Source: Pseudomonadales bacterium (GTDB lineage: Bacteria; Pseudomonadota; Gammaproteobacteria; Pseudomonadales; Azotimanducaceae). Taken from it: 64,000 bases of DNA. Location of the stretch: NCBI GenBank assembly GCA_022822135.1, contig JAJECH010000033.1, forward strand, positions 1 to 64,000. The letters are read 5' to 3'. The notes beneath the pieces are model-generated. The model was not told where the DNA came from and searched no databases. It saw only the letters and a program-made list of their open reading frames with translations. Positions 37,061-40,097 of this stretch are shown here, piece by piece. Positions within the stretch are counted from its first letter, which is position 1, and each line of letters begins with the position of its first letter. The translations under genes were made by a program, and so were the position numbers.

Positions 37061-39241
37061 TTAGTTCGTTTCGTCGGATATTTCGTACTCGAGCAACACA
37101 CGACCGTCTCCGTTCAAAATCGAAACATGCAACCCTGACGTCTTAAACGCAGGGATGCGCAAGCCCCAATCTCTTTTACCAGGTTCGCCATGCGCGACTT
37201 CCAGTGGCTGAACGGTGTCGCGATATAGAAGCGTCCCAGAAGCTGTGTGAATCAACTGCAATTCGAACTCTGAGCCGCCGAACGAACGGGTAAACGGTGG
37301 CTTGTCAACAATCACAGCCTTTCGTAATACCCAGCCTTCAGACTCTGACTGGAACCCTATCAATGCCAAACTTCGTCCTTCAATAACGTCAAATCCAGCG
37401 ACGATCGGGTCAGGTGGTTCCGAAGCGGACACCGTTGTGCCGAAGCGACGGACGAAGTAGTCATTCGCGTTACCGTAGCTGTATTGGCTCGTGAAAGTCT
37501 CCAAGCAATATGACATCGTGTCATATACCTTCGTCGCCGCGAGTCCCGCTTGACCAATGGGTTGTCTTTTACGCATCAACCATCCACTCTCGGTTCCTAT
37601 CGATCCATCTGAATACGGGAAATTCGGGTCAGGATTCGCGTCCTCCCTCTCAGCCCCGCACGCAGGAGCATGCTTTAACGAAAGATTGTGCCCTACTTCA
37701 TGTGCAAACGTATTAGGTGAGCAAGTCTCACTTCGCTCCCCGGTAACACCAGCATTACCCGGAAGATGGGCTACACCACAGTTTCTAAGATCGGCCGGCC
37801 GGATGAAGATGCCGTGGAAAAACTCATCACGATCTCCTGATGTCACCCAACGATTAAAGACAGCATCGAGTGCGTCAAGGGGTTCGAATGGCTCTTCCGA
37901 CGTCATGTCGATTGTTTCGCCAACATTTACTGTGTGGGTACCGATAGGAAGCAATTCATAGAGCAAATCGACGTAAAAGCTCGTATCGCTCAAGTCCGGT
38001 TCACCGTGATTTGAACGGATCGGAAATAGAGTTAATCTCAGATGGGGTAATTCGACGATCTCTAGATTACTAATATCAAAAACGATGGTGTTGTTCGCCT
38101 CATTTCGCTGCGGAACTGCATCTTCAGGATCAATCCCTATCTGTAGTTCACCGAGAGAAGAAAGATCGTTCGACGCAACATCGAAAACGGTCCTTCGAAT
38201 GTAGTTAGTCCTCGTACCCGATAGGTTCGGTACCAAATTACTCACACGTATCAATTCGATCGTTACGTCGTTCGATGCATTAGAAGATTCAAGAGAGATG
38301 TCGATATCGCTTTCAACTTCAGATTCGAATGAGATCGTCACAAACATTTGCCGATTTGATCCCAGCCGCAGTGGTCGTTGAGCAAAGTAGTACAACGGAA
38401 CGACCTCGGCCTGCCATTCGTCGTCGACTAACGTGAATTCAACCTGATCAATCAGTGGTCCTTGATGAAATTGCGCTGTAATCGCTTGTATGTCTTCAAC
38501 AGTACAGGTCACCGACCATTCAACACGCTGGGATGCGCTACCCACTCGAATCTGAAGAGCAACGACGTGAACCCCAACATCAAGACATGCGTATCGGAGA
38601 CGGTTCTCAATGTCAGTTCCTGGAAGCGACGAGCCTGATGCGTTTGTAATTTGAAGGCGATCTGACTCCGCGGTGACTTCGTAATTCAAAGAGCTGGTTG
38701 ATTCGCCCGTTGTCTCAAAACTCCAAGTCAATGTGGTTAGCGCAGCTTCGTCTTGCTCAATGCGCACCTCCTCCAGGGGCATGAAAGTAATCTGCTCTTC
38801 CGTACACGCAATCGTCCAAGTCACGCTTTCAGATGCTGAGCCTACTGCAAATGTGATTTCTGCTTCAACGTTCCCAGCCGTTGAGCACGTAAAAGCAAGC
38901 TGTGTATTTATCGAGGTACCAGGTACGACACTCCCTGATCCCCCAGTGATCTGAACGCCGGATGTCGATGACGTGACCGTATAGCTCGTAGATGGGGCAC
39001 CCGCGACAGACGCACTGAAAGACCAGGTAATAGAGACTTCAGCCGATTGCCCGACTGACGAGGTCACTTCTCCAGGACTTGACGATACGTCTATCGAGTA
39101 AGTTATGTTTTGCGGTGGGGGTGGGGGTGGCTCGGGCGGTGGTGTCGTCGTGGAACCACCGCCGCCACCACACGCGACTATGATCGCGCCGATACTCAAA
39201 AGCGCAATTAGTCTTGAGCAAGACAGCAATATTCGCTGCAA
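37061..39241 (-). CDS. Zincin metalloprotease lipoprotein
   Basis: 726 residues. The signal ends in the lipobox IIVACG, followed by a Gly/Thr/Pro-rich linker (GGGGGSTTTPPPEPPPPPPQ). Two immunoglobulin-like repeats follow (each with a SGSVVPGT / SGSSLPGT turn and a paired cysteine). Then comes a beta-rich region and a metzincin-type catalytic domain with HEVGHNLSLKH (H514, E515, H518, H524) and a likely Met-turn at YDTMSYC. The C-terminus is a beta-sandwich. All zinc ligands are present. It probably acts at the cell surface on proteins; no exact peptidase family is assigned. Confidence 0.82.
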   Translation of the reverse strand: MQRILLSCSRLIALLSIGAIIVACGGGGGSTTTPPPEPPPPPPQNITYSIDVSSSPGEVTSSVGQSAEVSITWSFSASVAGAPSTSYTVTSSTSGVQITGGSGSVVPGTSINTQLAFTCSTAGNVEAEITFAVGSASESVTWTIACTEEQITFMPLEEVRIEQDEAALTTLTWSFETTGESTSSLNYEVTAESDRLQITNASGSSLPGTDIENRLRYACLDVGVHVVALQIRVGSASQRVEWSVTCTVEDIQAITAQFHQGPLIDQVEFTLVDDEWQAEVVPLYYFAQRPLRLGSNRQMFVTISFESEVESDIDISLESSNASNDVTIELIRVSNLVPNLSGTRTNYIRRTVFDVASNDLSSLGELQIGIDPEDAVPQRNEANNTIVFDISNLEIVELPHLRLTLFPIRSNHGEPDLSDTSFYVDLLYELLPIGTHTVNVGETIDMTSEEPFEPLDALDAVFNRWVTSGDRDEFFHGIFIRPADLRNCGVAHLPGNAGVTGERSETCSPNTFAHEVGHNLSLKHAPACGAEREDANPDPNFPYSDGSIGTESGWLMRKRQPIGQAGLAATKVYDTMSYCLETFTSQYSYGNANDYFVRRFGTTVSASEPPDPIVAGFDVIEGRSLALIGFQSESEGWVLRKAVIVDKPPFTRSFGGSEFELQLIHTASGTLLYRDTVQPLEVAHGEPGKRDWGLRIPAFKTSGLHVSILNGDGRVLLEYEISDETN

Positions 39242-39350
39242 CAGACACCTCTTTCTAACAAGCCAACACTCAGCATCTTTTCGGATGCCGTGGCTACGCC
39301 GTACGAGGCGTTAAATCCTCGTGAAATCTAACCGTGTACCGGCGAACCGG

Positions 39351-39572
39351 TTATTGAGTTGCTAGTTCCCCGATCAGAGCGTCTTCATTCGGGAAATCGC
39401 CCGTCTCGTGTTTGGAAAAGATCAGTCTCTCGTCCATACGCACATCGAAGATCCCGCCCGATCCTTCGAGCAACTCCGTCGTCGCACCTAGCTCTGACTC
39501 AAACTTGGCAGCCAAACTGACCGCCTTTGGTAGATAGCCTCAGGATGTGCAGTATTTAATCGTGATATGCAT
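39351..39572 (-). CDS. SelW/Rdx-family selenoprotein with in-frame TGA (CxxU)
   Basis: Reading through one TGA (39542-39540, codon 11) gives a complete 73-residue protein from ATG 39572 to TAA 39351. It begins MHITIKYCTSUGYLPKAVS and continues FESELGATTELLEGSGGIFD, VRMDERLIFSKHETGDFPNE, ending in ALIGELATQ. This is the whole Rdx/SelW fold: the YC-x-x-U/C redox motif directly after the first strand, the GG-F-V strand, a lysine-containing strand and the G-FP end. Vertebrate SelW also has a YC-x-x-UGY motif at this place. No other stop interrupts the frame, and a SECIS-like hairpin follows the TGA. It likely has a thiol-redox role. The alternative is a nonsense mutation at a cysteine codon. The ribosome binding site is weak. 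No selABC or selD genes are in the window. Confidence 0.8.
39507..39542 (-). promoter_or_regulatory. Candidate bacterial SECIS element
   Basis: Directly after the TGA the RNA can fold with CCAAA (39530-39526) pairing to TTTGG (39516-39512), an apical loop GGCGGTCAG, and a lower GGC/GCC pairing (39539-39537 with 39509-39507). The loop holds GGUC 18-21 bases after the TGA, close to the position of the SelB-contacting GGU in known bacterial elements. The stem is short and has an asymmetric internal loop. The fold was done by eye. Confidence 0.5.
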
Positions 39573-39749
39573 AACTGAGTTCGTGTGTATTTCCGACAAT
39601 CATACTTTGCGTACGATGCTTTCGGCGATCAACTGACACGGGAACGCTCCACGACATGTGATAGCGAATAGCGAAATCCTTGCGCACGTCTTTCAGTCAA
39701 ATCACCCGTCAAGACGACACAATCGGTACCTAAAAACAACGAAAATTGA

Positions 39750-40097
39750 CATCCTCCTCGACCTAAAGAACGAGGATTCCTACCGCGCTCAAGCATGACA
39801 TGGTGCCATTGCTTGAGTCGCCTCAGTGGGTTCCTGCTGCTGACGACTATTGTCGTTCACTTCACAGGCGAACCGGGCATGCCCTGCCCTTTGAACATTA
39901 ATTCCACCGACAACGAAGGTATGACCTTCAAAGCACCCGCAGAGTGCCTCTCTCTCGCTAATCGTCTGCTTGGTTTTCGTCAGACGCGTCGTGCGAAATT
40001 CTTTGACGAAGCCTCTTTAGGTGCATCACAATCTTACAAAAATATCATACATTGCGCCTTATATCCCCGACCTGAACGACGGGGCTTTACGGCGCGT
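39750..40097. mobile_element. IS200/IS605-derived element without transposase (MITE/PATE-like)
   Basis: The left end reads ATCCTCCTCGACCTAAAG... then GAGGATTCCTACCGCGCTCA, and the right end CCTTATATCCCCGACC... then CGGGGCTTTACGGCGCG. These are decayed copies of the subterminal palindromes characteristic of IS605-group (tnpB-carrying) elements, with imperfect stems (CCCCG/CGGGG at the right end, ATCCTC/GAGGAT at the left). Only about 350 bases lie between them, with no tnpA or tnpB, so this is an internal-deletion derivative. Boundaries are approximate. Confidence 0.65.

Follow-up and report, generated by a model that had tools for sequence, protein, structure and literature searches.

Does a short minus-strand frame at 39351-39572 of the window (the whole 64,000-nucleotide stretch of Pseudomonadales DNA analyzed here), interrupted by one TGA, represent a broken gene or a gene whose TGA is decoded as selenocysteine (Sec)? 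The first-pass annotation, made from the sequence alone, favored a SelW-like selenoprotein. The family, the conservation of the TGA, the RNA structure behind it and the gene content of the genome bear on the answer in different ways, and are considered in turn below.

The SelW/Rdx frame and its TGA

39351..39572, minus strand: predicted SelW/Rdx-family selenoprotein gene; ATG 39572-39570, TAA 39353-39351, 73 codons, Sec at codon 11
39540..39542, minus strand: in-frame TGA, predicted to be read as selenocysteine (U11); TGA conserved, C in stop-free homologues
39549..39551, minus strand: TGC codon, C8, partner cysteine of CxxU; all 21 of the rows aligned have C here

The single internal TGA of the 73-codon frame is codon 11, within the motif YCTSUGY. 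Read through, the frame matches PF10262 (Rdx) at 60.1 bits (E 2.5e-16; cut-off 22.6), and the window protein scores 51.9 bits against TIGR02174 (CXXU_selWTH; cut-off 34.2), bearing out the earlier claim of a minus-strand SelW/Rdx frame of this length with one TGA. Rdx membership is supported on both sides of the TGA. Against the NF041051 equivalog (SelTWH_Campy) the protein reaches 75.8 bits, below the curated cut-off of 88, and is not assigned there. The TGA had also been placed at the second redox position, and this is where it lies: the C and U/C columns of the CxxU/CxxC motif of the SelW-like/Rdx (SelT/W/H) family align with those of homologues. A sequence search of solved structures (E up to 1) found seven chains matching the window protein; in the alignments shown, the CxxC of PDB 3dex (SAV_2001) and 2fa8 (Atu0228) falls on C-T-S-U, while mammalian-type selenoprotein W (2npb) is a weak match (E 0.009). 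The Cys-type proteins 3dex and 2fa8 thus share the family by sequence, with CxxC aligned to CxxU, but have Cys in place of Sec and for that reason need no SECIS.

The ATG at the gene start is common to the six distinct near sequences compared; another ATG, at 39603, is in a different frame. The frame is absent from the mechanical table-11 frame list (≥60 aa), making the locus a clean case of a gene left out by an ordinary list of this kind. Its product would be a 73-residue thioredoxin-like Rdx protein, the fold being that expected of the family, with CxxU (C8/U11) near the N-terminus. It is probably a small cytosolic thiol/selenol oxidoreductase, with redox activity, location and partner all predicted from family knowledge; an earlier survey (PMC1088965), describing the function of SelW-like proteins as unclear, takes the CxxU motif to suggest a redox role and cites an interaction with glutathione.

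Conservation of the TGA is extensive. A protein search of 58 genomes, the window's own included, found 35 matches, spread over 33 of them. The closer 29 (42-99% identity, own included) have a single TGA as their only stop; the other six, 30-38% identical, are stop-free. The TGA form is present in 29 of the 37 genomes of the host family, and the nearest relatives, from the same genus, retain both the TGA and the intact frame. Peptide patterns that exclude codon 11 found 72 loci in named genomes, a collection that partly overlaps with the 58-genome set, and 72 of 72 have TGA at this codon. The 20 TGA loci checked for phylum fall in Pseudomonadota, Thermodesulfobacteriota, Planctomycetota, Verrucomicrobiota, Gemmatimonadota, Acidobacteriota and Candidatus Eiseniibacteriota. 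One Pseudohongiella genome (OX638341.1) has two TGA-type selW copies (L044, L051) about 5.5 kb apart.

An even sample of 293 genomes across the order contains 69 with a match: 9 carry TGA and 60 are stop-free, the latter 30-42% identical to the window protein. Nineteen of these 60 were read residue by residue, including L117, a Cys-type locus excluded from the RNA alignment discussed below. All 19 have C at the U column and at column 8. At the U column, homologues have TGA or, in the 19 stop-free ones read, C, which is the outcome that the first-pass annotation had proposed looking for. Comparison with five relatives of the same genus gives a dN/dS of 0.04-0.13 for the 61 codons past the TGA, dS being about 0.9-1.6 and hence near saturation; this range omits two more distant rows, L094 (no usable ratio, its synonymous sites being saturated) and L020 (0.06, nearly saturated), and a ratio would need more than the ten codons ahead of the TGA. 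Judging from these values, the region past the TGA is under purifying selection.

The hairpin downstream of the TGA

39508..39524, minus strand: putative bacterial SECIS core hairpin, 7-bp stem GCGGUCA/UGGCUGC, loop GUU; based on pairing, covariation and energy (-11.9 kcal/mol)

In Escherichia coli fdhF, the SECIS is a hairpin directly downstream of the UGA and is read by SelB. In the window, the stem arms 39524-39518 and 39514-39508 enclose the apical loop GUU (39517-39515); the hairpin starts 15 bases past the TGA, 22 bases separate the TGA from the loop, and the window's own sequence adds an eighth pair (39525 with 39507). Different from fdhF is the loop, here GUU or GUC with an A-U closing pair, a form that fits the pattern N1-G-[G|U]-N-N2. 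This pattern belongs to the bSECIS model as described in PMC13188914, which has a G at position 1 or 2 of the loop (mostly G[G|U]), a loop of 3-9 nt, an upper stem of 4-16 bp, a UGA-loop distance of 16-37 nt and an MFE of at most -7.5 kcal/mol. The hairpin agrees with all of these, having a 3-nt loop, a stem of 7 bp in the consensus and 8 bp in the window's own sequence, a spacing of 22 nt, a sufficiently low energy and an early G (loop GTT in 66, GTC in 24 and GCC in one of the 91 aligned rows). An Rfam scan of the window at gathering scores gave no match, a result that carries little weight for a SECIS.

A hairpin carrying GGUC in its loop, 18-21 bases after the TGA, had been part of the first-pass annotation. 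The hairpin and the position of GGUC hold, but the motif lies in the 5' arm and the loop is GUU. Placing GGUC in a 9-nt loop through a stem CCAAA/UUUGG was tried and rejected: 80.0% of cells were paired (79.0% in shuffles) with no two-sided change, and the covariation score of 0.057 was no gain on the 0.059 of shuffles.

Folded alone, the window's own sequence is not better than its shuffles (z -0.24 to -1.05); comparison among relatives, not the single-sequence fold, is what makes the hairpin convincing. For that comparison, 101 TGA hits (72 + 29) became 91 rows when 10 with an identical 111-base stretch were removed, and 63 once those at least 93% identical were taken out, 62 of them distinct on 51 columns. 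The consensus fold of the 63 sequences is exactly the 7-bp stem. Across its seven pairs, 98.6% of 434 cells are paired (91.0% in shuffles), 31 cells are changed on both sides (12.6, sd 2.0, in shuffles) and the covariation score is 0.233 (0.102 in shuffles), none of these values being reached by any of 500 shuffles; with the stem shifted by 1-3 columns, pairing is 16-49%. The weaker of the five measures are the number of pairs with two-sided change (two, reached by 88 of 500 shuffles) and the number of further pair types (nine, reached by 11 of 500).

A single pair accounts for most of the covariation. Pair 20-32, joining two third codon positions, ranks first of 5778 column pairs by two-sided covariation (GU 30, CG 24, UA 3, GC 2, AU 1, UG 1 and two non-pairs), and pair 23-29, also at third positions, is CG in 59 sequences, UA in 3 and UG in 1. 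Within the 29 rows from the 58-genome set, 27 have all seven pairs, and pair 20-32 is GT in 24, CG in 3 and GC in 2. All seven pairs occur in 57 of the 63 sequences, whereas synonymous recoding that follows how these genes use codons elsewhere than in the stem gives them in 3.2% of draws. Serine codons within the stem are AGY in 89 of 89 cases (91 rows, the other two having Gly), compared with 25 of 120 outside it (63-sequence set). A quick protein tree puts the minimum number of state changes at 14 for pair 20-32 and at 3 for pair 23-29. An independent-pairs test of pair 20-32 that allows for kinship had two independent pairs on supported branches (eight on all branches), too few to reach significance, with 1.9 on average in the same direction and none in the opposite one. 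Codon-level covariation of this kind is better evidence for a SECIS stem than folding energy.

Sec decoding and other readings of the TGA

The genes by which a Sec-decoding organism is recognized (selA, selB, selC and selD) are all present in the window's own genome, which is 97.61% complete and 0.04% contaminated. On contig C56, selA (544.8 bits; cut-off 267.9) adjoins selB (411.6 bits; cut-off 242.25), and contig C26 carries selD (256.7 bits; cut-off 125) and a tRNA-Sec gene (selC; 71.1 bits; gathering score 47) with a TCA anticodon. A genome lacking selB and selC had been named in advance as evidence against a selenoprotein; this was looked for and not found. The selD domain sits in a 737-aa frame (L010:1387-3600, minus strand) whose first half resembles, by eye, a pyridine-nucleotide-disulfide oxidoreductase, that is, a fusion; as there is no TGA in this frame, SelD is not itself a selenoprotein here. 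On established knowledge of the Sec pathway, the hairpin starting 15 bases past the UGA would recruit SelB carrying Sec-tRNA(Sec), and selenocysteine would go in at position 11 in place of termination.

A single internal stop in an otherwise open frame, together with the existence of CxxC homologues, is also what would be seen if a TGC-to-TGA change had broken a former CxxC Rdx gene, or if a sequencing error had done so. The same-codon TGA in all closer matches, spread over many genera and several phyla, speaks against such a pseudogene, as do the low dN/dS beyond the TGA, the covarying hairpin behind it and the full Sec gene set in the genome, so that we consider it highly improbable. Alternatively, the TGA could be read through by other means, Trp, Cys or Arg being inserted because the code is reassigned or suppression is leaky; the sequence in itself shows only a continuing frame. 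However, the stop-free homologues read have C at exactly the redox column where the TGA lies, and the one TCA-anticodon tRNA seen, short of a genome-wide tRNA scan, is tRNA-Sec. Moreover, selA, selB, selD, all three molybdopterin-oxidoreductase matches and 12 of the 13 AhpC-TSA matches in this genome are free of internal stops, and TGA is therefore not generally a sense codon here. Read-through of this type is very unlikely, if marginally less so than a pseudogene. It is likewise formally possible from the sequence that the functional product is a short peptide ending at the TGA, or that translation restarts downstream (e.g., at the TTG of codon 20), but the conserved unit spans both sides of the TGA and includes the upstream YC motif, the ATG is in the same place in the near sequences compared, and a restart would lose the CxxU motif; we give this reading as little weight as the pseudogene.

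Taken from sequence, the evidence thus consists of family membership, a conserved TGA, a full decoding gene set, a conserved and covarying hairpin, and purifying selection past the TGA, and from it the locus almost certainly encodes a SelW-like (Rdx family) selenoprotein with Sec inserted at the codon-11 UGA via SelB and the hairpin. We regard the finding as correct; its mechanism is standard and the system is already understood. SelW-like CxxU selenoproteins were the most abundant family in a Sargasso Sea survey (48 genes; PMC1088965) and in the GOS survey (427; PMC2398784), the latter describing them as generally leading in marine samples. Since such proteins are already known and abundant in marine surveys, the window gene is a further example of a known protein type. 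Going by the descriptions in these two surveys, the marine proteins share the CxxU motif, the short Rdx-type form and a SECIS directly downstream of the UGA; nothing fundamental sets ours apart, and what the present case documents is which lineage hosts the gene and that its SECIS stem covaries. In the main text of PMC5029168, PMC12013277 and PMC13188914, no word starts with "SelW".

The Sec trait in the lineage and the surroundings of the gene

Transcending the single locus, selB is above its cut-off in 39 of the 58 genomes: 35 of 37 in the host family and 4 of 21 others of the order. The earlier remark that selenocysteine is patchy in this group therefore fits at the level of the order. Genomes with the TGA form of selW have selB above the cut-off in 28 of 29 cases, compared with 11 of 29 without it (Fisher p 2e-6, kinship ignored). 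Genome G032 (91% complete) has a TGA-type selW with selB not above the cut-off, which could reflect an incomplete assembly, contamination or loss.

In the account that Zhang et al. (PMC1794560) give of Pseudomonadales, FdhA is the only selenoprotein and lies beside a selA-selB-selC cluster. The present picture differs in two ways: selC of the window's genome is on another contig than selA-selB, and FdhA, above the cut-off in 24 of the 37 family genomes, holds no TGA in any of them and a TAG in one. Outside the family, genome G056 holds the only formate-dehydrogenase-type TGA matches among the matches listed (C3:113924-114697 and C18:34343-35116), and has the best selB score of the 58 genomes.

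The one AhpC-TSA match with an internal stop in the window's own genome is a peroxiredoxin (Prx)-like frame (C36:52021-52647; L123:822-1448, minus strand; 87.3 bits) with a single TGA in W-U-P-Y-C (UxxC) and, by eye, a lipoprotein-like N-terminus. A bSECIS-like hairpin of 6 bp with a 5-nt loop lies 20 bases past this TGA; its energy of -10 kcal/mol is no improvement on shuffles (z -0.24). We consider the frame, examined in this genome alone, a second selenoprotein candidate. CMD/AhpD proteins, which also form a known CxxU family, were searched for in the same genome and not found. These observations incline us to the view that the lineage, at family level, keeps the Sec trait through small thiol-redox selenoproteins (SelW-like, and Prx-like in the window's genome) and not through formate dehydrogenase. 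Other keepers of the trait are possible, since the scans of the relatives covered SelW-like proteins and FdhA. For the lineage, this would tie a widely kept selenocysteine trait to small redox proteins in place of formate dehydrogenase.

Two further features flank selW:

39597..39607, minus strand: AAGTATGATTG, candidate -10 promoter box (TATGAT 39604-39599), 24 bases upstream of the ATG; identified by eye
37061-39241, minus strand: possible M66-type metallopeptidase, 726 aa; same strand, 109 bases downstream of selW

The upstream element is identical in five of six distinct sequences (own and near relatives, compared by eye) and may be the -10 box of a short-leader promoter. A sigma-70 scan gave no promoter match at this element, and promoter and terminator scans of 39200-39800 found nothing. 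Upstream of selW and divergent from it is a gene for a ketopantoate-reductase-like protein, and other nearby frames encode luciferase-like, PhyH, dapD-type and S9-peptidase-like proteins; no functional neighbor of selW was found among the nearby frames. In four distinct relatives (L016/L089, L017/L090, L019/L092 and L093), selW is in addition preceded by a paralogue of the possible M66-type frame, with about 32-38% identity.
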